DNA from: Halobaculum rubrum
GTDB lineage: Archaea > Halobacteriota > Halobacteria > Halobacteriales > Haloferacaceae
Length of the DNA stretch: 64,000 bases
Assembly (NCBI RefSeq): GCF_019880225.1
Contig: NZ_CP082284.1
Span: 1,178,001 to 1,242,000 of the forward strand
Direction of reading: 5' to 3'
Shown: piece after piece, positions 2,643 to 41,821 of the stretch
Layout of the letters: each line of letters starts with the position of its first letter
Position numbering within the stretch: the first letter of the stretch is position 1
Program-made: the position numbers and the translations under genes
Notes under the pieces: generated by a model
What the model saw: only the letters and a program-made list of their open reading frames with translations
What the model was told of the DNA's origin: nothing
Database searches by the model: none

Positions 2643-5225
2643 ATGGCCGAGGCCGCCGCGAAGACCGAGTACGTCGATCATCCCCTGCTCGTCGAGGGGT
2701 TCATCGAGGACCGCCGCTACCAGACGGAGCTGGCGGCGACTGCCCGCGAGGGCCACACGCTCGTGTGCCTCCCGACCGGCCTCGGAAAGACGACCGTTTC
2801 GCTGCTCGTCACCGCCCACCGGCTGTACGAGACCGGGGGCAAGGCGCTGTTCCTGGCGCCGACGAAGCCGCTGGTGCAACAGCACGCCGACTTCTACCGC
2901 GAGGCGCTGGACATCGCCGACGAAGAGATCGTCGTGTTCACCGGGGAGGTCCGGCCCGACGACCGCGCCGAGCTGTGGGAGGGCGCGAGCGTCGTCATCG
3001 CCACGCCGCAGGTCGTCGAGAACGACCTCGTCGGCAACCGCATCTCGCTTTCGGACGTGACCCACCTGACGTTCGACGAGTGCCACCGCGCGAGCGGCGA
3101 CTACGCGTACGTCTACATCGCCGAGCGCTACCACGCCGACGCCGAGAAGCCGCTCGTCACCGGGATGTCCGCCTCGCCCGGCGGCGACCGCGAGGAGATC
3201 ACGGCGGTGTGTGAGAACCTCGGCATCGACCAGGTCGAGGTGATGACCGAGGACGACGCCGACGTGGGCGAGTACACCCACGACACCGACGTGCAGTGGG
3301 AGCGCATCGACCTCCCGGAGCCGATCGTCGAGATCCGCGACGCGCTCAACGAGGTGATCACCGACAGGCTGGAGAGCCTGAAGGAGTTGGGCGTCACGAA
3401 CACCACCCAGCCGGACGTCTCCCAGAAGGACCTCAACAGGATGCGCGGGGAGCTCCAGCGCATGATGGACGGCGGCGACTCCGACGCCTACACCGGGATG
3501 TCGGTGCACGCGGAGGTCATGAAGCTCCGGCGGGCGGTCGAACTCGTCGAGACACAGAGCGTCGAGGCGCTGCGCCGCTACTTCGAGCGCCAGCGCAACG
3601 CCGCGCGCTCGTCGGGCGCCTCGAAGGCGAGCCAGCGGATGGTCTCCGAGCCCAAGGTCAGAGAGGCGATGCGCAAGGCAGAGAGCTTCGACGACCTCCA
3701 CCCGAAGTTCCGGCGCACGCGGGTGCTGCTCGCGCAGACGCTCGGCATCGGCGGCGGCGAGCGCGTCATCGTGTTCACGGAGTCCAGGGACACCGCCGAG
3801 GCGCTGACGGAGTTCCTCTCGGCCTCCTTCGACACCCGACGATTCGTCGGGCAGGGCGACAAGGAGGGCTCCGACGGGATGACCCAGAAGCAACAACAGG
3901 AGACGCTCGACGCCTTCCGCGCCGGCGAGTTCGAGGTGCTCGTCTCCACCAGCGTCGCCGAGGAGGGGCTGGACGTGCCGGAGGTCGATCTGGTTCTCTT
4001 CTTCGAGCCGGTGCCGACCGCGATCCGCTCCATCCAGCGGAAGGGCCGGACCGGCCGGCAGGCGGAGGGCGAGGTGGTCGTCCTCCTCGCCAACGACACG
4101 CGCGACGAAGCCTTCTTCTGGATCTCGCGGCGGCGCGAGCAGGAGATGGAGGACGAGCTTCGGAAGCTGAAGGGCGTCGCCGACGAGTTGAGCGACGAAC
4201 TCGACGACGGACAGTCCGGGCTCGAGGAGTTCGACGGCGAGGCCGAGCGAAGCGAGGCCTCGAAAGGACGAGCGGGGAGTGAAACGACCCGCGAGACGGG
4301 CGAGGCCGATCGAAGCGCCGGCGGCGGAGGCGGCGCCGACGGCGACGAAGACGGCGATCCCGACTCCGCGACCGACTCGACGTCCGCGGCCGCCGCCACG
4401 AACGGCCAGCCCGGGTTGACCGACTTCGAGCCCGACGACGACTCGTCGGAGGCTGACGCCGACGGCGACACGACCGAGCGCGACGACGAGGCGACGGCGG
4501 ACGACCCAGGCGAGGACGAGGACGAATCCGACGCCGACGACGGCGTCGTCGCCGCCGCAGGCACCGACGCCGACGGCACCGAGATCGTCATCGACCAGCG
4601 CGAGCTCGAGTCGACCATCGCGCGCGACCTCTCCACCCGCGAGGGGATCACCACCCGGCTGGAGACGCTGGCGGTCGGCGACTACGTGCTCTCCGACCGC
4701 GTCGCCGTCGAGCGCAAGTCGGTCGCGGACTTCCTCGACACGCTCGTCGGCGGCGACCGCTCGATGTTCGAGCAGATCCGCGACACTGCGCGGGCGTACG
4801 CCCGGCCCGTCGTGATCATCGAGGGCGAGGACCTGTACGGCGAGCGCAACGTCCACCCGAACGCGGTCCGTGGCGCGTTGTCGTCGCTGGCGATCGACTT
4901 CGACGCGAGCGTCCTCCGGACCGAGGACGAGGCCGACACCGCCGACCTGCTGGAGGTGATCGCCCGACGCGAGCAGGAAGAGAACGACCGCGAGGTGTCC
5001 GCACACGGCGAGAAGGGCGCGAAGACGCTCGCCGAGCAACAGGAGTACGTCGTCTCGTCGATCGCCGACATCGGCCCGGTCACCTCGCGGGCGCTGCTGG
5101 AGCACTTCGACACCGTCGAGGCGGTGATGTGCGCCCGCGAGGAGGACCTGCTGGAGGTGTCCGGCGTCGGGCAGGTGACCGCCGAGCGCATCCGCGAGGT
5201 CGTCGGCAGCGACTATCCCAAATGA
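2643..5225 (+). CDS. hef: Hef helicase/nuclease for forked DNA (FANCM/XPF-like)
   Basis: An 860-residue protein with an N-terminal SF2 helicase and a C-terminal XPF-type nuclease, acting on stalled replication forks. Visible helicase motifs are PTGLGKT (Walker A, near residue 45), DECHRASG (motif II), SASPGG and, further on, FTESRDTAE and QRKGRTGRQ. An acidic low-complexity linker covers about residues 500-645. Then comes the ERCC4 nuclease with VERKSVADFLDTL near residue 690, followed by a helix-hairpin-helix pair at the end. The linker includes a palindromic insert near residues 533-545. An AT-rich box about 29 nt upstream suggests a nearly leaderless mRNA. Length and domain order match haloarchaeal Hef. 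Confidence 0.95.
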   Translation: MAEAAAKTEYVDHPLLVEGFIEDRRYQTELAATAREGHTLVCLPTGLGKTTVSLLVTAHRLYETGGKALFLAPTKPLVQQHADFYREALDIADEEIVVFTGEVRPDDRAELWEGASVVIATPQVVENDLVGNRISLSDVTHLTFDECHRASGDYAYVYIAERYHADAEKPLVTGMSASPGGDREEITAVCENLGIDQVEVMTEDDADVGEYTHDTDVQWERIDLPEPIVEIRDALNEVITDRLESLKELGVTNTTQPDVSQKDLNRMRGELQRMMDGGDSDAYTGMSVHAEVMKLRRAVELVETQSVEALRRYFERQRNAARSSGASKASQRMVSEPKVREAMRKAESFDDLHPKFRRTRVLLAQTLGIGGGERVIVFTESRDTAEALTEFLSASFDTRRFVGQGDKEGSDGMTQKQQQETLDAFRAGEFEVLVSTSVAEEGLDVPEVDLVLFFEPVPTAIRSIQRKGRTGRQAEGEVVVLLANDTRDEAFFWISRRREQEMEDELRKLKGVADELSDELDDGQSGLEEFDGEAERSEASKGRAGSETTRETGEADRSAGGGGGADGDEDGDPDSATDSTSAAAATNGQPGLTDFEPDDDSSEADADGDTTERDDEATADDPGEDEDESDADDGVVAAAGTDADGTEIVIDQRELESTIARDLSTREGITTRLETLAVGDYVLSDRVAVERKSVADFLDTLVGGDRSMFEQIRDTARAYARPVVIIEGEDLYGERNVHPNAVRGALSSLAIDFDASVLRTEDEADTADLLEVIARREQEENDREVSAHGEKGAKTLAEQQEYVVSSIADIGPVTSRALLEHFDTVEAVMCAREEDLLEVSGVGQVTAERIREVVGSDYPK
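4238..4262 (+). repeat. small palindrome inside the hef linker
   Basis: Seven-base arms (CGAGGCC / GGCCTCG) surround an 11-nt loop of the form gagcgaagcga. The palindrome lies in frame inside the disordered acidic linker of Hef and encodes residues reading AERSEAS. It belongs to the palindrome family described under the findings. Confidence 0.6.
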
Positions 5226-12608: not shown

Positions 12609-13660
12609 GGCGATCCCACGGGGTGGAGCCCCTGGAACTCCAGACCGGCCGTCTCCTCGAGCCCGAGCGCGACGTTGGCGGCGTGGACCGCCTGCCCCGC
12701 CGCGCCCTTCATCACGTTGTCGATGGCCGAGAACGCGACCACGCGGCCGTTCTCGGGGTCGAGTTCGAAGCCGACCTCGGCGTGGTTCGTCCCGGCCACG
12801 GCCTTCGGCTCGGGGTAGCGGTACACGCCGCCGCCGCCCGCGACGAGGCGGACGAACGGCTCGTCGTCGTACGCCTCGCGGTAGGCGCCCCACAGATCGC
12901 CCGTGGTGACGCGCTCGCTCGGGAAGGCGTGACACGTCGCCGCCGCCCCGCGGGTCATGTCGACCGCGTGGACGGTGAACGACAGCGAGAGGCCCAGCTC
13001 CTGCTTGATCTCCGCCTCGTGGCGGTGCCCCGTCGGCGCGTACGGGCGCACGACGCCCGAGCGCTCGGGGTGGCTGGAGGCGGCGCCGCCGCCGGCGCCC
13101 CCCTCCGAGGAGCCGACCTTCAGGTCGGCGACCACCTGATCGTCGGGCGTGATGACGCCCGAATCGACCAGCGGCTTCAGCGCCAGCATCGTCGCCGTCG
13201 CGTTGCAGCCGCCGGAGGCGATGAGGTCCGCGCCCTCGAGTTTCTCGCGCCCCAGCTCGGGGAGCGCGTAGGCGGCGTCCGCGAGGTGCTCGGGCGCGAC
13301 GTGGCCGTCGTACCACTCGTCGTAGTCCGCCTCCTCGCTGAGCCGGAAGTCCGCCGAGAGGTCGACCACGGTGCCCGCGGCGTCACGGAAGGCGTCGATA
13401 TGCTCCATCGAGACGCCGTGGGGCGTCGACGCGAACAGCACGTCCACCGAGTCCAGGTCATCGGGCGAGGAGAACCGCACGTCGACGCCGCGGAGGTTCG
13501 GGTGGACGTAGCCGAGCGTCTTGTTCTCGTACTCACGGCTGGTCGCCTGCACGAGTTCGAAGTTCGGATGCCCGGTCAGCAGGCGGCACAGCTCGCCGCC
13601 CGCGAAGCCGGAGGCGCCGACGACGGCGGCGGTGAGTGTCGCGTTCTCGCCCGCACTCAT
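12605..13660 (-). CDS. argC: [LysW]-glutamyl/aminoadipyl-phosphate reductase
   Basis: A 351-residue NADPH-dependent semialdehyde dehydrogenase of the ArgC/LysY family. VVGASGFAGGELCRLL near residue 13 is the Rossmann nucleotide loop, and IASGGCNATATML near residue 150 contains the catalytic cysteine. HAVDMTRGAAATCHAF near residue 230 is a typical late motif. The ATG overlaps the argX stop (ATGA). It reduces the acyl phosphate made by ArgB to the semialdehyde used by ArgD. Confidence 0.94.
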   Translation of the reverse strand: MSAGENATLTAAVVGASGFAGGELCRLLTGHPNFELVQATSREYENKTLGYVHPNLRGVDVRFSSPDDLDSVDVLFASTPHGVSMEHIDAFRDAAGTVVDLSADFRLSEEADYDEWYDGHVAPEHLADAAYALPELGREKLEGADLIASGGCNATATMLALKPLVDSGVITPDDQVVADLKVGSSEGGAGGGAASSHPERSGVVRPYAPTGHRHEAEIKQELGLSLSFTVHAVDMTRGAAATCHAFPSERVTTGDLWGAYREAYDDEPFVRLVAGGGGVYRYPEPKAVAGTNHAEVGFELDPENGRVVAFSAIDNVMKGAAGQAVHAANVALGLEETAGLEFQGLHPVGSP

Positions 13661-14586
13661 GCCGTCATCACGGCTTCGTTCGCCGCCTCCGCCTTCAGTT
13701 CGAGCCAGTCGACGACCGCCGCGGGCACGTCGACCTCGCTGGCCTCGTTCAGCGCCTTGAACTCGACGGTGTGGTTCACCTCGTGAACGGTGTACCTCGA
13801 CTCGCCGTCTCGCGGGTCGCTCCGCTCCCCGCTCGATTCCGAGGCGCTACGCGCCTCGCCCGTCTCCATCAGGTCGACGCCGAGCAGGCCGCCGCCGACG
13901 GCGTCGCTCGCCTTCCGCACCAGCTCCGTCGCCTCGTCGTCGAGATCGAAGGTGTCAGTCTCGCCGCCCTTCGCGGCGTTGGTGAGCCAGTGCTCGGAGG
14001 TACGCGTCATCGCGGCGACGGGCTCGCCGTCACACGCCAGCACGCGGATGTCGCGGCCGGGCTTGTCGACGTACTCCTGCACGTAGAACACCTTGTGCTC
14101 GTAGTGGCCGAGCGTCGCCTTGTGTTCGAGGATCGCCTCGGCGGCGTTCTCGGTGTCGAGCTTGGCCATCAGCCTGCCCCACGAGCCGACGACCGGCTTG
14201 ATCACGCACGGGTAGCCGAACTCCTCGATGGCCTCCATCGCGGCCTCCGTCGTGAACGCGACCTCGGTCGCCGGCGTCGGCACGCCCGCGCTCTCCAGCG
14301 CGAGGCTGTTCTTCACCTTGTCGGCGCAGACCGCCGCGGTCTCCGGACTGTTGATCACGGGGACGCCGTACGCCGAGAGGAGCCGCGTGGCGTACAGCGA
14401 GCGCGAGGTGGCGAGACAGCGGTCGATCACCAGATCGCAGTCGGCTATCTCGGCGGTCGTCTCGTTCAGGCCGAACCGCTGCTTGCGCACGTCGATCTTG
14501 GCGACCTCGTGGCCGCGGTCGCGAAGCTCCGACAGGAGGAGCTTCTCGTCTTTTCGGATCCGGGAGTAGAGCAGGCCGAGCTTCAT
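13657..14586 (-). CDS. argX: LysW-glutamate/aminoadipate ligase (ATP-grasp, LysX/ArgX)
   Basis: A 309-residue ATP-grasp/RimK-like ligase that joins the amino group of glutamate (or aminoadipate) to the C-terminal glutamate of LysW. MKLGLLYSRIRKDEKLLL opens the protein and fixes the start at 14586; the longer frame to 14679 is overlap with lysW. NSPETAAVCADKVKNSL, PCVIKPVVGSWGRL and VHEVNHTVEFK are family motifs. Between GVDLMETG and YTVHEVNH there are about 20 extra Arg/Ser/Glu-rich residues encoded by a GC-rich palindrome; other ligases of this family have only a short turn there. lysW ends 1 bp upstream. Confidence 0.92.
   Translation of the reverse strand: MKLGLLYSRIRKDEKLLLSELRDRGHEVAKIDVRKQRFGLNETTAEIADCDLVIDRCLATSRSLYATRLLSAYGVPVINSPETAAVCADKVKNSLALESAGVPTPATEVAFTTEAAMEAIEEFGYPCVIKPVVGSWGRLMAKLDTENAAEAILEHKATLGHYEHKVFYVQEYVDKPGRDIRVLACDGEPVAAMTRTSEHWLTNAAKGGETDTFDLDDEATELVRKASDAVGGGLLGVDLMETGEARSASESSGERSDPRDGESRYTVHEVNHTVEFKALNEASEVDVPAAVVDWLELKAEAANEAVMTA
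13800..13864 (-). repeat. palindromic element inserted in frame in argX
   Basis: The core 13840-13858 is CGAGGCGC, a 3-nt loop, then GCGCCTCG. Read on the coding strand it gives EARSASES and continues as an Arg/Ser/Asp stretch to about 13800. The core differs at one loop base from the copies in hemC (18932-18950) and in the argH-lysW gap (15113-15131), and it is read in the same frame as the hemC copy. Confidence 0.7.
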
Positions 14587-14819: not shown

Positions 14820-15186
14820 CTGTCGGAGTCGCCGCTATCGAGCGGGAGCGGGCGATTCGGCGCGGATCTCGAATCCGATGTTCGAAATCTGAGTAGTGTT
14901 GGCCCCGAGGGGGGCCGGCGGGGCCACCGCCGCCGGCGGTCGCGGGGCGGCGGCCGGGACCGGTCGAGGTCGGGTCCCCGGTCGCGGTCGGCCGCCCCGC
15001 GGTCGTCGCGGAACTCGGAGCGGTCGTGGATGTCGCGGAAGCCGGCCGCCCGCCGGAGCCGTCGCTCGCGGTCGGGCGAGCGGTCGTCTCGCGGCTTCGC
15101 CGCTCGACTGTCCGAGGCGCTCCGCGCCTCGCATTCGTCGGGTCGTCGGGCGTCCGGTCATGAGTGGACTCCAGGTCGGTCGGTGA
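14820..15186 (-). other. argH-lysW gap with a palindromic element and no clear gene
   Basis: This stretch separates the argGH and lysW units. A palindromic element occupies 15091-15132. Downstream of it a minus-strand frame without an ATG stays open for about 110 codons and is rich in Arg, Asp and Pro; it reads through the element in the same frame used in hemC. It may be a decayed coding end or an open frame created by GC bias. No family is recognised. Confidence 0.4.
15091..15132 (-). repeat. palindromic element, 32 nt identical to one in hemC
   Basis: Hairpin CGAGGCGC-TCC-GCGCCTCG at 15113-15131, next to a second small hairpin GCGGC-TTC-GCCGC at 15091-15103. The 32 bases 15101-15132 are the exact reverse complement of 18931-18962 inside hemC, so this is the same mobile or recombining unit in an intergenic position. 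Confidence 0.75.
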
Positions 15187-18371: not shown

Positions 18372-19613
18372 ATGACAACCGGGACGCTGCGGCTCGCAAC
18401 CCGCGGCTCCGACCTCGCGCTCCGACAGGCGGCCGGCGTCCGAGACGAGCTCTCGACGCGCCGCCGCGACGTGGAGCTGGTCGAGGTCGAGACGCGCGGC
18501 GACCGACTCGACGAGGATCTCATCACCGAACTCGGCCGCACCGGCGCGTTCGTTCGCGCGCTCGACGAGGAGGTGCTGTCGGGCGAGGTCGACGCCGCGG
18601 TCCACTCGTTGAAGGACATGCCCACCGACATGCCCGACGGCCTCGTCGTTGCCGCCGTCGGCGAGCGCGCCCCCGCCGGCGACGCGCTCGTCACTCGCGA
18701 GGGCGGCGACCTCGCTGACCTCCCGCGCGGCTCGGTCGTCGGCACCTCCTCGCTGCGGCGGAAGGCGCAGGTGCTCGCCGAGCGCCCCGACCTGGAGGTG
18801 CGCCCCCTCCGCGGCAACGTCGACACGCGGCTCCAGAAGCTGATCGCGCCCGCGCTTCAGGCCGAGCACGAGCGCCGCGTCGAGGCCGAGGCCGACCACA
18901 AGGGGGATCCCGGCGCACGCGAGGAGGATAGCGAGGCGCGGAGCGCCTCGGACAGTCGAGCGACGGAGTCGTCCGAGACGGCGAAGCCGTCTCGTGATGA
19001 CGGAAGCCGCGACGCGGCTTCCGAACCATCGCGAGACCGCGAGTACGAACGCACCGTCGAGGAGTGGTTCGACGACCGCACCGAGTTCCAGCGCGCCGCG
19101 TTGGAACACGAGGTCGACCACGAGTACGACGCCATCGTGCTGGCGGAGGCCGGCCTGCGTCGCTCGGATCTGTTCTACCGCGACGAGTACGAGGTCGAGC
19201 GCCTCGACCGCGCGGACCACGTCCCCGCGCCCGGCCAGGGCGCCGTCGCCGTCACCGCGAGCGACCCCGACGTGATCGACGCGATCCGGTCGGCGATGGA
19301 CCACGAGCCGACCCGCGTCGCCACCAGCGTCGAGCGCACGATCCTCGCCGAGTTGGGCGGCGGCTGTATCGCCCCGATCGGCGTCAACGCGCTCGTCCAG
19401 GGCGAGCACGTCAGCGCCCGCGTTCGGGTGCTGTCGGCCGACGGCGACACCGAGGTGAAGGCGAACCGCGACCTCCCGCTGCGTACCTACCGCGAGGGCG
19501 CCGCCGAGTTCGCCGGGTCGCTGCGCGATCAGGGCGCCGCCGAACTCATCGAGGCCGCGAAGCGCGCCGCGGACACGGAGACCGCGAAACGCGTCGAGGA
19601 GGGTGACGAGTAG
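18372..19613 (+). CDS. hemC: hydroxymethylbilane synthase (porphobilinogen deaminase)
   Basis: A 413-residue enzyme that joins four porphobilinogens into hydroxymethylbilane. It opens with LRLATRGSDLALRQA, has VHSLKDMPTDMPDG near residue 80 and GTSSLRRKAQVL near residue 125. LGGGCIAPIGVNA near residue 335 contains the cysteine that should hold the dipyrromethane cofactor. Between NVDTRLQKL and EYDAIVLAEAG there are about 100 residues, against roughly 10 in bacterial HemC; part is a haloarchaeal insertion, and about 30 residues come from three tandem palindromes. The ATG at 18372 fits the conserved start and a leaderless promoter. It heads hemC-sumT-hemD. Confidence 0.95.
   Translation: MTTGTLRLATRGSDLALRQAAGVRDELSTRRRDVELVEVETRGDRLDEDLITELGRTGAFVRALDEEVLSGEVDAAVHSLKDMPTDMPDGLVVAAVGERAPAGDALVTREGGDLADLPRGSVVGTSSLRRKAQVLAERPDLEVRPLRGNVDTRLQKLIAPALQAEHERRVEAEADHKGDPGAREEDSEARSASDSRATESSETAKPSRDDGSRDAASEPSRDREYERTVEEWFDDRTEFQRAALEHEVDHEYDAIVLAEAGLRRSDLFYRDEYEVERLDRADHVPAPGQGAVAVTASDPDVIDAIRSAMDHEPTRVATSVERTILAELGGGCIAPIGVNALVQGEHVSARVRVLSADGDTEVKANRDLPLRTYREGAAEFAGSLRDQGAAELIEAAKRAADTETAKRVEEGDE
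18931..19023 (+). repeat. three tandem palindromes inserted in hemC
   Basis: CGAGGCGC-GGA-GCGCCTCG (18932-18950), CGAGACGGC-GAA-GCCGTCTCG (18974-18994) and CGGAAGCCGC-GAC-GCGGCTTCCG (19001-19023). Each has an 8-10 bp perfect stem and a 3-nt loop beginning with G. All are read in frame and encode Ser/Arg/Glu/Ala-rich sequence inside the haloarchaeal insertion of HemC. The first 32 nt recur exactly at 15101-15132 in inverted orientation. Confidence 0.8.
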
Positions 19614-25041: not shown

Positions 25042-25908
25042 CTATCCCCGAATCCGGCGGAGGAGTCGCGAGACGAGCCCGCCGCCGTGCCGCTCGGGCA
25101 CGTCGTCCCACAGCGCGAACGCGGCGACGACGTCCGCTTCGCGGCTGGCGACCCCCTCCTCGCGGTCGGGCGCGACGACGCCGAGGTTGATCTCGTAGTG
25201 GCCGTAGTAGCCGAGCTTCAGCAGCTGGCGCTCGCGGAAGCCGACGACGAACTCCCGGACGTCGTCGGGGATCTCCGGGGCGACGATGACGAATGAGAAG
25301 TCGGTCCCGAAGTGCTCCTCGTCGGCGTCGACCAGATCGTCGGCGAGGGCGTGACCCAGTTCGACGAGCCGCTCCAGGTCCCGGACGGTCACCGAGTCGA
25401 CCCGGCGGGCGAACAGGTGCTCGTCGCTGTGGTGGTTCGCATAGTCGAGCGACGGGTGGAAGAACTCCTTCTGTGAACGGATCTGCATCGACGCGTACAG
25501 ATCGAACGGCTCGCCCCGGGCGCGGTAGTCGCGTTCGAGGTCGTAGTTGAACATGAGCCGGTCGCTGACGCGGTCGAGGTACCTGTCGTCCCACGTGGGT
25601 ACGTCCTCGTAGGCGTCGCCGTCGAGGATCCGCCCCTGCTCGTCGGTGCGGGGCTCCTCGCCGGGGGCGGAGTCGGCGGCGCGCTCCGGGTCGGTCCCGC
25701 TTCCGTCGGCTCGAACGGCGTGTTCACGGGTCGATCTCCCGGCTCGCGGGTCGCATCGCTTGCGGGTCGCGTTGCTCGCGGGTCGCCTCGCGATCTCGCT
25801 CCGCTCGACCGCGCACCGCTCCCCGCTCGACGGTCCGGGGCGCTCGCTTCGCTGGCGCCCCGCACTCCTCGCTCGCTTCGAGGACTCCCTTCGGTCGTCC
25901 TCGCTCAT
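25042..25908 (-). CDS. uncharacterised haloarchaeal protein with a repeat-derived N terminus
   Basis: A 288-residue protein. The apparent conserved core is residues 90-288, with DVPTWDDRYLDRVSDRLMFN, QIRSQKEFFHPSLDYANHH and FSFVIVAPEIPDDVREFVV; no known domain is recognised. Residues 5-75 are an Arg/Ser-rich stretch encoded by tandem and palindromic repeats and are unlike a normal acidic halophilic protein. The ATG at 25908 is the only ATG before the core, so either the insert is translated or a non-ATG start lies downstream of it. It follows the cupin gene by 1 bp and probably shares its transcript. Confidence 0.65.
   Translation of the reverse strand: MSEDDRRESSKRARSAGRQRSERPGPSSGERCAVERSEIARRPASNATRKRCDPRAGRSTREHAVRADGSGTDPERAADSAPGEEPRTDEQGRILDGDAYEDVPTWDDRYLDRVSDRLMFNYDLERDYRARGEPFDLYASMQIRSQKEFFHPSLDYANHHSDEHLFARRVDSVTVRDLERLVELGHALADDLVDADEEHFGTDFSFVIVAPEIPDDVREFVVGFRERQLLKLGYYGHYEINLGVVAPDREEGVASREADVVAAFALWDDVPERHGGGLVSRLLRRIRG
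25741..25902 (-). repeat. palindromes and tandem repeats at the 5' end of a coding region
   Basis: Three tandem units of the form GCGGGTCGC plus 5-6 nt lie between about 25745 and 25787. A palindrome GGGGCGC ... GCGCCCC with an 11-nt loop is at 25837-25861, and GAGGAC ... GTCCTC at about 25880-25902. The loops again contain TCGCTTCGC- or CCTTCGG-type cores. This is the densest cluster of such elements inside a reading frame in the window. Confidence 0.65.
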
Positions 25909-28855: not shown

Positions 28856-28910
28856 GCGGAGCGGTCCTGTGCCGCTCCGCCGTCCGTCGAGGCCTCCCCC
28901 GGTCGGCCTC
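28856..28910. repeat. two small palindromes upstream of thrC
   Basis: GCGGAGCGG / CCGCTCCGC (28856-28880, 7-nt loop) and GAGGCC / GGCCTC (28889-28910, 10-nt loop). They precede the thrC promoter and resemble the dispersed palindromes elsewhere in the window in arm composition. Confidence 0.5.
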
Positions 28911-35350: not shown

Positions 35351-35669
35351 TCAGCCGCGGTGGCGCGTGCCGGCTGCGCTCCGTCGCAGCCGCAAGCGCG
35401 CGAGGGATGAGCGAGACCGGGAGCGGAGCGACCGGGCGAGCGAATCGGCTGGGGAGGTCGTGGCTGCGGCGCGGCGCCCTGGGGTGGGACTGGAAGGGGC
35501 CGGCGGCTACGCGAACCCCGGTACCGCAAGCACCGGAACCGAGTGAGCGAAGCGAGCGAGGTGACGAGCACAGCGCGTGCCGCGGGAGCGTAGCCGCCGG
35601 GGCTTTCGAGTACCCCCGCGGCAGTCAACTGCGTCCCGACCGACGACCCGAAACCGCCGAACGCGCCGA
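35351..35669. repeat. intergenic cluster of palindromic and AGCGA-type repeats
   Basis: The ligA-permease gap has no gene. It holds CGGCTGCG / CGCAGCCG with a 6-nt loop at 35370-35391, paired ACCGGG blocks around gagcggagcg near 35416-35434, and a run of agcgaagcgagcgag near 35545-35560. These have the loop sequences of the palindromes seen in other gaps and reading frames. Confidence 0.55.
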
Positions 35670-36540: not shown

Positions 36541-36715
36541 GAGCACGGGAGTCGCAGCCCGCGAAGCGAGCGGTGCGAGGTCGAACGGGATGAGACCTCA
36601 GTGGCGAACGGGGAGCGAGCGCGGTCGAACGGAGTGAGACCGCGACAGCGAGCGGCGACCGAAGCGAGCCGTGAGCGGAGCGACCCGTGAGCGACGCGAG
36701 CGAGCAGGACCGTCT
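36541..36715. repeat. palindromic repeats between the ABC ATPase and permease genes
   Basis: Two related palindromes share the core GGTCGAACGGrrTGAGACC: 36577-36599 with GAGGTC/GACCTC arms and 36621-36643 with GCGGTC/GACCGC arms. Further AGCGA-rich segments (agcgaagcgagcggt, cgaccgaagcgagccg, gagcggagcgacccg) follow to 36715. They fill the gap between two genes that normally touch. Confidence 0.7.
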
Positions 36716-37793: not shown

Positions 37794-39098
37794 ATGACCG
37801 ACGACGCCGACGCGCCGACGGGCGAGTGGGGCGCGCGGACGCGGGCGCTCCACACCGGCTGGACCGGCGATCCGGCGACCGGCGCTCGGGCGCCGCCCAT
37901 CTACCAGACGACATCCTACTCGTTCCCCGACGCCGACACCGCGGCCGACCTGTACGCCCTCGAGCGCGAGGGCGACGTGTACTCCCGTATTTCCAACCCC
38001 ACGACGCGGGTGTTGGAGAAGCGGCTCGCGGACCTGGAGGGCGGCGTCGACGCCGTCGCCACCGCCTCGGGAATGGCCGCCATCGACACGGCGACCAGTC
38101 TGCTCGCGCGCGCCGGCGACAACGTCGTCGCCAGCGCCGACATGTACGGCGGCACGAGCACCTATCTCGCACATATGGCTTCCCGGCGCGGCGTCGACCT
38201 TCGGACCGTCGACACCGCCGACTACGCGGCCTACGAGGAGGCCGTCGACGATGACACCGCGTTCGTCCACGTCGAGACGGTGGCGAACCCGTCGCTCGTG
38301 ACGCCCGACTTCGAACGGGTCGCCGAGATCGCCCACGAGCACGCGGTCCCGCTGGTCGTCGACAACACCTTCGGAACCCCCGTGCTGTGCAACCCCATCG
38401 ACCACGGCGCCGACGTGGTGTGGAACTCCACCACCAAGTGGATCCACGGAGCGGGAACCACCGTCGGCGGCGTCCTCGTCGACGGCGGCACCTTCCCGTG
38501 GGACCACCCGGACGCCGATTATCCCGAACTGTCGGGAGAGAACGCCGCCTTCGGCGTCGACTTCTCGGAACACTTCGGCGAGCGTGCGTTCACGCAGGTC
38601 GCGCGCCACCGCGGCGTCCGCACGCTCGGCAATCCCCAGTCTCCCTTCGACGCCTGGCAGACACTTCAGGGCCTCTCGACGCTCCCCGTCCGCATGGAGA
38701 AACACTGCGAGAACGCCCGGATCGTCGCCGAGCACCTCCGCGACCACCCCGAGGTCGCGTGGGTTACCTACCCCGGGTTCGCGGATCACCCGACTCACGA
38801 GACCGCCGCCGAGTATCTCGACGACTTCGGCGGCATGGTCGTGTTCGGGCTCGCGGACGGCTTCGCCGCCGGGAAACGCCTGTGTGAGGAGGTGGAACTC
38901 ATCTCGTTTCTCGCGAACATCGGCGACGCCCGCTCGCTGCTCATTCACCCGGCGAGCACGACCCACGCACAGCTCACCGAGGCGGAACAGGCGGCTGCGG
39001 GCGTGAGCCCGGACCTGCTGCGCCTGTCGGTCGGGATCGAGGACCCCGCGGACATCGTGACCGACCTCGACCGCGCCATCGCGGAGGCGACGCGATGA
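37794..39098 (+). CDS. metY: O-acetylhomoserine sulfhydrylase / cystathionine gamma-synthase family, copy 1
   Basis: A 434-residue Cys/Met-metabolism PLP enzyme. [20 protein letters not shown] near residue 40, [16 protein letters not shown] near residue 90, [33 protein letters not shown] near residue 190 with the PLP lysine (TKW), and [10 protein letters not shown] near residue 385. It most likely makes homocysteine from O-acetylhomoserine and sulfide. Its stop overlaps the metX ATG (ATGA), so acetylation and sulfhydrylation are coupled. A paralogue of equal length follows metX. Confidence 0.9.
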
Positions 39099-40519: not shown

Positions 40520-41821
40520 ATGTCCGACGAAGACACCGACGACTACGGCTTCTGGACGCGCAGCGTCCACGAGGGCGCGGACCCCGACCCGACGACGGGC
40601 GCGCGGGCGCCGCCGATCCACCAGACGACCTCCTACGTGTTCGACGACGCCGACCACGCGGCGCGGCTGTTCGCGCTGGAGGAGGAGGGGTACATCTACA
40701 GCCGGCTGCTCAATCCGACGGTGGCACGGCTGGGCGAGCGGCTCGCGTCGCTGGAGGGGGGCGTGGGCGCCGTGCCGACGAGCTCCGGGATGGCGTCGTT
40801 CGATCTCGCGACGTTCCTGCTCGCGTCCGCCGGCGACAACATCGTCTCGTCGTCGTCGCTGTACGGCGGGACGTACACCTACCTCACGCACACGGTGGAG
40901 CGCCGGGGAGTCGAAACCAGGTTCGTCGATACCCTCGACTACGACACCTACGCGGAGGCGATCGACGGCGACACGGCGTTCGTCCACCTGGAGACGATCG
41001 GCAATCCGGCGCTCGTCACGCCCGATATCGAGCGGATCGCCGACATCGCCCACGAGCACGGCGTGCCGCTGTTCGTCGACAACACGTTCGCCACGCCGTA
41101 TCTCTGCCGGCCGATCGAGCACGGCGCCGACCTCGTGTGGGAGTCGACGACGAAGTGGATCCACGGCTCCGGATCGACCGTGGGCGGCGTGCTCGTCGAC
41201 GGCGGCTCGTTCCCGTGGGGCGAGCACGCCGAGCGCTTCCCGGAGCTGGGCGCCGACAACCCCGCATACCACGGCGTCAACTTCGCCGAGCGCTTCGGAG
41301 AGACCGCGCTCACGTACGGTGCCATCGCTCGCGGCCTGCGCGACCTGGGGAGCGCGCAGTCGCCGTTCGACGCCTGGGCGACGATGCAGAAGCTTGAGTC
41401 GCTGCCGATGCGGATGGAGCGCCACTGCGCGAACGCCCAGCACGTTGCCGAGCACCTCGCCGACCACCCGGCCGTCGAGTGGGTGACGTACCCTGGGCTC
41501 CCGGACCACGAGACCCACGCGGAGGCGTCGGAGTATCTCGACGGCGGCTACGGCGGCATGATCGCCTTCGGGCTGGCCGACGGCTACGAGGCAGCGCGCG
41601 GAACCGTGGAGAACACGGAACTCGCGTCGCTGCTGGCGAACGTCGGCGACGCCAAGACGCTCGTCATCCACCCCGCGAGCACCACTCACCAGCAGCTCAC
41701 CGAGGAGGAGCAACTGGCCGCGGGCGTCACCAGTGACATGGTTCGGCTCTCGGTCGGCGTGGAGGATCCCGCGGACATCGTGACCGACCTCGACCGTGCC
41801 ATCGCCGAGGCGACGCGATAG
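40520..41821 (+). CDS. metY: O-acetylhomoserine sulfhydrylase / cystathionine gamma-synthase family, copy 2
   Basis: A 433-residue paralogue of the gene at 37794, sharing the same motifs: [79 protein letters not shown] (PLP lysine) and HPASTTHQQLTEEEQ. The last 25 residues of the two are nearly identical ([20 protein letters not shown] here). One copy may use a different sulfur donor or acyl-homoserine; the sequence does not show which. It has its own 96-bp upstream region. Confidence 0.9.
   Translation: MSDEDTDDYGFWTRSVHEGADPDPTTGARAPPIHQTTSYVFDDADHAARLFALEEEGYIYSRLLNPTVARLGERLASLEGGVGAVPTSSGMASFDLATFLLASAGDNIVSSSSLYGGTYTYLTHTVERRGVETRFVDTLDYDTYAEAIDGDTAFVHLETIGNPALVTPDIERIADIAHEHGVPLFVDNTFATPYLCRPIEHGADLVWESTTKWIHGSGSTVGGVLVDGGSFPWGEHAERFPELGADNPAYHGVNFAERFGETALTYGAIARGLRDLGSAQSPFDAWATMQKLESLPMRMERHCANAQHVAEHLADHPAVEWVTYPGLPDHETHAEASEYLDGGYGGMIAFGLADGYEAARGTVENTELASLLANVGDAKTLVIHPASTTHQQLTEEEQLAAGVTSDMVRLSVGVEDPADIVTDLDRAIAEATR

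Follow-up and report, generated by a model that had tools for sequence, protein, structure and literature searches.

Small palindromes dispersed in and between the genes of Halobaculum rubrum very probably represent a short, non-autonomous element of the haloarchaea that is built of two adjacent hairpins, and whose in-frame copies are tolerated in exposed loops of the proteins they enter. The element, here called type-1, belongs to a separate and apparently undescribed family of haloarchaeal palindromic elements; no description of it by sequence or by peptide was found in the open-access literature. Its copies in the 64-kb window, the whole stretch of DNA that was analysed (positions 1178001-1242000 of the main contig of the 3.06 Mb H. 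rubrum genome), are listed in Table 1 together with their host genes and with the related hairpins.

Table 1. Palindromic elements and host genes in the 64-kb window. R1 is the covariance model of the type-1 element; hairpins are perfect triloop hairpins (T) or GA-type hairpins (GA).
Feature	Position	Strand	Hairpins	Evidence
hef nuclease/helicase, host	2643..5225	+		NF010337, 1107 bits
Type-1 in hef	4237..4299	+	GA 4238-4262, 4272-4292	R1 48.5 bits; alignment
argX (LysX/ArgX ATP-grasp ligase), host	13657..14586	-		TIGR02144, E 2.4e-84
Type-1 in argX/lysX, peptide EARSASESSGERSDPRDGE	13805..13859	-	GA 13812-13832; T 13840-13858	R1 66.1 bits; filled only in G010 among G001-G010
Type-1, intergenic	15084..15132	-	T 15113-15131	R1 72.4 bits; codon-position test of flanks negative
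hemC (hydroxymethylbilane synthase), host	18372..19613	+		TIGR00212, E 3.5e-79
Type-1 in hemC	18931..18981	+	T 18932-18950	R1 59.5 bits; empty site in H. saliterrae, H. gomorrense
Type-2 double hairpin in hemC	18974..19028	+	T 18974-18994; 23-nt palindrome 19001-19023	CGAGACGGC(GAA)GCCGTCTCG - TGATGA - 23-nt palindrome - AACCA
GA/GNA hairpin cluster	25783..25903	-	GA 25879-25903	Weak R1 match, 23.1 bits, E 0.28
GA/GNA hairpin, between genes	35417..35435	+	GA 35417-35435	Hairpin scan
GA/GNA hairpin cluster, between genes	36619..36679	+	GA 36620-36644	Marginal R1 match, 25.4 bits, E 0.098

The two-hairpin pattern is seen in an alignment of the hemC, argX and hef copies with the intergenic copy near 15091, and the hairpins of these four are of one family. 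Its consensus consists of a hairpin A, GCGAGGCGC(GNA)GCGCCTCGGA, a short linker, and a hairpin B, CGAGCGGY...RCCGCGAG, the two hairpins being separate; the whole is about 45–60 bp long, with 43–54 nt separating the conserved ends. The copy in hef sits in a hypervariable acidic linker and has tandem GA pairs and a GAA loop in both hairpins. The intergenic copy is the top-scoring R1 match in the H. rubrum genome and shares with the hemC copy an identical 30-mer that occurs only these two times in the genome. All of the hairpins that the earlier note had listed exist, although not all belong to this family. Of its further examples, that at 15091 is type-1, the one at 28856 is a plain hairpin that belongs to neither of the families described here, and those at 25837, 35370 and 36577 fall at clusters of GA/GNA hairpins that are looser, with weak R1 matches or none. 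The open reading frame around 25837, a putative gene at most, has no match in a protein-family search. Within 25783-25903 one GA/GNA hairpin seems to sit inside the hairpin B loop of another element; the hand-trimmed version with the nested insert removed (w25837core) is included in alignment A1 only and was excluded from the R1 model. We also note two paralogous stretches close by in the window, at 38143-39096 and 40860-41819, that are 75–79% identical.

The stems of the type-1 elements contain compensatory changes, with 97% of alignment cells paired. Cells in which both partners have changed number 131 against 30.7 in shuffles in the alignment fitted to the covariance model, and 8 against 2.5 in the unfitted seed alignment, and the intergenic copy folds with z-scores of -3.05 as DNA and -3.36 as RNA. 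Such strong covariation and stability as RNA would also be seen in a functional structure – a regulatory hairpin, a determinant of mRNA stability or a protein-binding site – whose coding potential is incidental. We regard this as quite unlikely, because the elements are patchily distributed in unrelated housekeeping genes whose orthologues are empty in sister species, an Rfam scan of a type-2 array gave nothing credible, and the stems of an element moving as a hairpin should covary too.

Both in the window and in 464 kb sampled from the genome, the total number of hairpins is close to the expectation of Markov shuffles; the comparison with shuffled sequence that the earlier note proposed shows no excess in the total count, but it does show one in specific loop and internal-loop classes. 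The 464 kb sample contains 11 stems of at least 8 bp whose loop is C(GNA)G or C(TNC)G, where about 2 are expected, and tandem GA/GA internal loops are found in 19 stems with outer arms of at least 5 in the H. rubrum sample, against 1.0 expected; at 57 haloarchaeal loci the tandem GA/GA stems number 38 against 2.3. The GA/GA internal loop is placed two base pairs below the hairpin loop, and GA/GA is the commonest mismatch pair in the H. rubrum set; in the 57-locus set it is so too when the complementary strand is read. Nucleic-acid chemistry in general shows that C(GNA)G triloops and tandem GA pairs confer unusual stability on single-stranded DNA, and this stability may matter for these elements. 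The total counts are what would be expected if the palindromes were chance products or local duplications in a genome of 70% GC; however, the model matches, the identical 30-mer, the covariation and the exclusive reading frame argue against chance, as does the absence of the element from two haloarchaea with comparable numbers of candidates (G020 and G023) and from all non-haloarchaeal plasmids, and this explanation is hardly credible. A further GA/GNA hairpin cluster (L085:12429-12726) recurs in tandem at an offset of 201 bp. Weak R1 matches in tandem, spaced by about 60–100 bp, occur at G000:C1:2287357-2287600 (L191, L195) and 2347337-2347583 (L192, L200, L208), and are probably a different array of GA-type hairpins.

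The three hairpins in a row that had been noticed in hemC are all present, but they are of two different families, and the insert is a composite. Hairpin A of the type-1 copy is intact and is followed by the linker GACAGT, whereas hairpin B is altered where the second element joins, the type-2 piece overlapping the 3′ end of the R1 match. Hairpins 2 and 3 belong to this second family, type-2, in which the linkers are fixed and the stems change freely: 40 genomes contain 31 matches to the pattern TCGTGATGA-hairpin-GAACCACG and none to a reversed control pattern, and nearly all of the 31 matches are perfect palindromes that differ in sequence. The H. rubrum genome also contains four-hairpin intergenic arrays (L088, L089, L090 and L091, e.g. 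G000:C1:2008640-2008820) with the fixed linkers TGATGC, GCTGA, TAATGA and AACCACGAACG and variable stems, some lying just past a stop codon, and plasmids from Haladaptatus, Haloterrigena, Natribaculum, Halococcus and Halolamina carry related sequence. Between L088 and L089 the loop of the last hairpin differs, GAA in one of the two and TTC in the other on an unchanged stem, as if it had been inverted.

The covariance model that the earlier note had suggested, R1, was trained on eight copies, most of them genic, such that decayed intergenic copies are under-counted, and its matches below about 40 bits are not secure and include tandem repeats of another kind. It identifies 48 places in the H. 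rubrum genome at E ≤0.1 and has matches in 30 of 40 relatives. The family is wider than had been claimed: in a draw of 295 genomes, 40 of the 53 haloarchaea have matches at E ≤1e-5 and none of the 242 other members of the phylum does, the negative counts being taken from the listing order and many of the 242 controls probably being less GC-rich. Better controls are provided by the haloarchaea G020 and G023, where first-look candidates are comparable in number, yet there is no R1 match, and by a blastn search of 72,556 plasmids with one consensus-like copy, which gives matches in haloarchaeal records only, mostly under annotated genes. Scans of phage records and IMG/VR found no type-1 element. 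We are fairly confident that the element has spread through the haloarchaeal class, being gained and lost repeatedly.

Where the copies lie relative to genes was examined by an annotation-free codon-position test (GC content at the three codon positions over 240 nt of each flank) of the 68 R1 matches of at least 50 bits. Forty-five are genic on both flanks in frame +0, one is in frame +2 and none is antisense; a further 14 have a one-sided or discordant coding signal, several of these being known genes (PyrF, ArgX, S4e) with the insert near the 3′ end, and eight have no coding flanks. At the strongest matches, chosen by score, long ORFs run through the EARSAS-encoding frame, and all 20 host ORFs submitted are conserved genes with Pfam matches: SBP56, PurK, CarB, TrpA (two), PyrF, SufB/D, a glyoxalase, an S9 peptidase, an aminotransferase, an XPD-like helicase, leucyl-tRNA synthetase, acetyl-CoA synthetase, a chorismate-binding enzyme, deoxyhypusine synthase, an M29 peptidase, chlorite dismutase, a class II tRNA synthetase, ribosomal S4e and a glycosyl transferase family 3 enzyme. 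The in-frame position is confirmed independently by three depositor-annotated genes, encoding a P-type ATPase of Halorussus vallis (WP_253521143.1), the PEP carboxylase of Haloterrigena salifodinae (WP_204749663.1) and CobN of Halorubrum lacusprofundi (WP_012660174.1). Frame-keeping insertion into essential genes, as the earlier note proposed, is thus borne out.

The inserted peptide is a flexible one of Ser, Glu, Ala, Arg and Asp with the pattern SEARSAS(D/E)..SSG(D/E).PRD. LysX, PurK and CarB are all ATP-grasp enzymes, and judged by their sequence motifs the inserts seem to share one turn, that which precedes the catalytic N/E strand; in solved LysX structures, which have no insert, the same strand-turn-strand runs straight through. 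In HemC the insert occupies approximately residues 187–222, and the AlphaFold2 model has pLDDT <50 at 183–222, the sole long stretch under 50 in a protein with a mean of 85.5; the insert is therefore predicted to be disordered. The inserted peptide would appear to be nearly neutral in its effect and is probably harmless to the protein.

Five of the six frames of the type-1 element are nearly always free of stops. The mean net charge of the encoded peptide is -0.6 in frame +0 and between +2.8 and +4.2 in the other five frames; the earlier view that Arg-rich peptides stand out against the acidic proteome finds no support here, as the peptides are not net basic and the inserts use the only frame that is not strongly basic. 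Because the proteome is acidic, this would account for the survival of one frame and orientation, and avoidance of a strongly basic peptide is probably the explanation of the exclusive use of frame +0; we infer that selection on charge causes the frame bias, and with the pattern of frame and charge the filtering of inserted peptides by an acidic proteome can be tested quantitatively. A more doubtful alternative is that the element inserts by preference in sense orientation into genes that are transcribed, for example through an RNA or single-stranded intermediate, in which case the frame bias would be partly mechanistic. If that were true, type-1 would be a selfish element specialised for essential proteins, with a mobilising enzyme common to haloarchaea.

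Empty sites, which the earlier note proposed to look for, were found. The H. rubrum hemC is nearest to those of Halobaculum, its best segment being 88% identical to H. saliterrae, and both the argX and hemC sites are empty in nine of the ten other Halobaculum genomes (G001-G009) and filled in G010. In G010 hemC has only a decayed first part of the H. rubrum insert, and there is a second type-1 copy at the HemC C-terminus. In a FastTree phylogeny the nearest neighbour of H. rubrum is G005 (support 0.975), followed by G002, and both of these are empty at argX and hemC, so that sharing with G010 requires precise loss, interspecies exchange or repeated insertion at the same site; the two argX copies are identical at 52 of 55 positions, which argues for common descent with loss or exchange. 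The HemC C-terminus is elongated by acidic tandem repeats in other Halobaculum, DDADTSDDDTA... (L125, G004) and EAGAGTTDD... (L127, G008), and the same protein has thus been lengthened by different routes.

The sister species G006 and G009, nearest to each other in the tree and 92–95% identical over 1.8 kb, differ in both directions: PurK and CarB are filled in G009 and empty in G006, and a third gene is filled in G006 and empty in G009. At TrpA the site is filled in H. rubrum and G015 only, 2 of 30, and the 28 others have no element and unchanged flanking residues. Against this stands the observation that the same loops of TrpA, PyrF, HemC, CobN and SBP56 are filled in different genera, as would be the case if they had been filled in the haloarchaeal ancestor and then emptied in most lineages. 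The same inserts at the same places in distant haloarchaea had been regarded by the earlier note as a sign of ancestral sequence, and such sharing does occur at the TrpA, PyrF and HemC loops; but since intervening species are empty, the inserts suggest recurrent insertion or repeated exchange rather than simple ancestry. Vertical descent, moreover, leaves unexplained why the type-1 sequence is alike across unrelated genes and families, and together with the empty TrpA sites and the differences between the sister species this makes an ancestral origin very unlikely. We infer from the sequence comparisons that mobility is the cause of the pattern of empty and filled sites.

In CarB and TrpA the empty site contains a CGAG or GCGAG, which the filled site shows at each of its two junctions; this would fit either insertion at short homology or the duplication of a short target. 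Our best guess is that a mobile type-1 element would insert via folded single-stranded DNA at such short homology; a copy landing in frame in an exposed loop would add a flexible peptide to an enzyme that still works, and the acidic proteome would remove the basic frames, such that frame +0 in the sense orientation persists. The exact ends and the target site are ambiguous, and no mobilising enzyme was found, the Y1 family having been tested. An element of REP/RAYT or IS200/IS605 derivation (PATE-like), with hairpins recognised by a Y1 HUH transposase, would share dispersed copies and mismatched-stem hairpins with REPs, and IS605-related PATEs are known in Haloquadratum (PMC3119063). However, among genomes at least 90% complete ten have elements but no match to PF01797 and six have PF01797 but no element, copy number and PF01797 are related by a Spearman rho of -0.40, no GTAG or CGTC tag is conserved in the listed type-1 copies by eye, and the strong copies are mostly genic. 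Such a derivation is unlikely, and the Y1 transposase was rejected as the mover on its phyletic pattern.

The type-1 element can be compared with several known systems. The Rickettsia palindromic elements (RPEs; Ogata et al. 2000) are 105–146 bp long, form one long stem-loop from paired ends and comprise several families (PMC2229807, PMC10969869). The resemblance to RPEs that the earlier note suggested holds in organisation: both are palindromes dispersed in and between genes, encoding in-frame peptides in conserved genes, with no known mover, and type-1 has clean empty sites. By that organisation, and not by sequence comparison, type-1 would work like an RPE. It differs, as far as RPEs can be compared by description, in its length and its two hairpins, in being GC-rich, in forming one family across an archaeal class, in being almost confined to a single frame, and in that its strongest copies are mostly genic. 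How small palindromes enter essential genes has been asked since the description of the RPEs, which come from obligate intracellular Rickettsia that are hard to manipulate; the question becomes testable with a multicopy family in free-living haloarchaea, of which some are named and cultured (e.g. Halorubrum lacusprofundi with its CobN insert), and with sister species that differ at defined sites.

GTAG- and CGTC-tagged REPs are likewise small palindromes, some of them intragenic, including in repair genes, and several in a row (PMC3733652). They are mainly extragenic, whereas 45 of the 68 strong type-1 matches are genic and eight have no coding flank, and type-1 has neither the conserved tag nor a positive correlation with Y1 transposases. 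The coding palindromic repeats of Methanocaldococcus jannaschii (Suyama et al. 2005, cited in PMC2229807), as outlined in that citing paper, are fused into protein genes; they are also archaeal and have coding potential, but by this description are of a different group. The nearest haloarchaeal mobile repeats are the PATEs and SMRs of Haloquadratum, which have near-terminal IS605-type palindromes or inverted terminal repeats and often lie inside other elements (PMC3119063). Like type-1 they are small and transposase-free; they are described as lacking a target duplication, and they are set apart by description, since the part of the account consulted does not present them as in-frame gene inserts. 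MITEs have terminal inverted repeats shared with a transposon, whereas the two type-1 ends, GCGAGG and CCGCGAG, when compared with each other do not form an inverted repeat. The kind of element is thus already known, from RPEs, intragenic REPs and the M. jannaschii repeats; what sets type-1 apart is the two-hairpin build, the near-restriction to a single frame, the conservation of sequence across a class and the predominance of genic positions among its strong copies.
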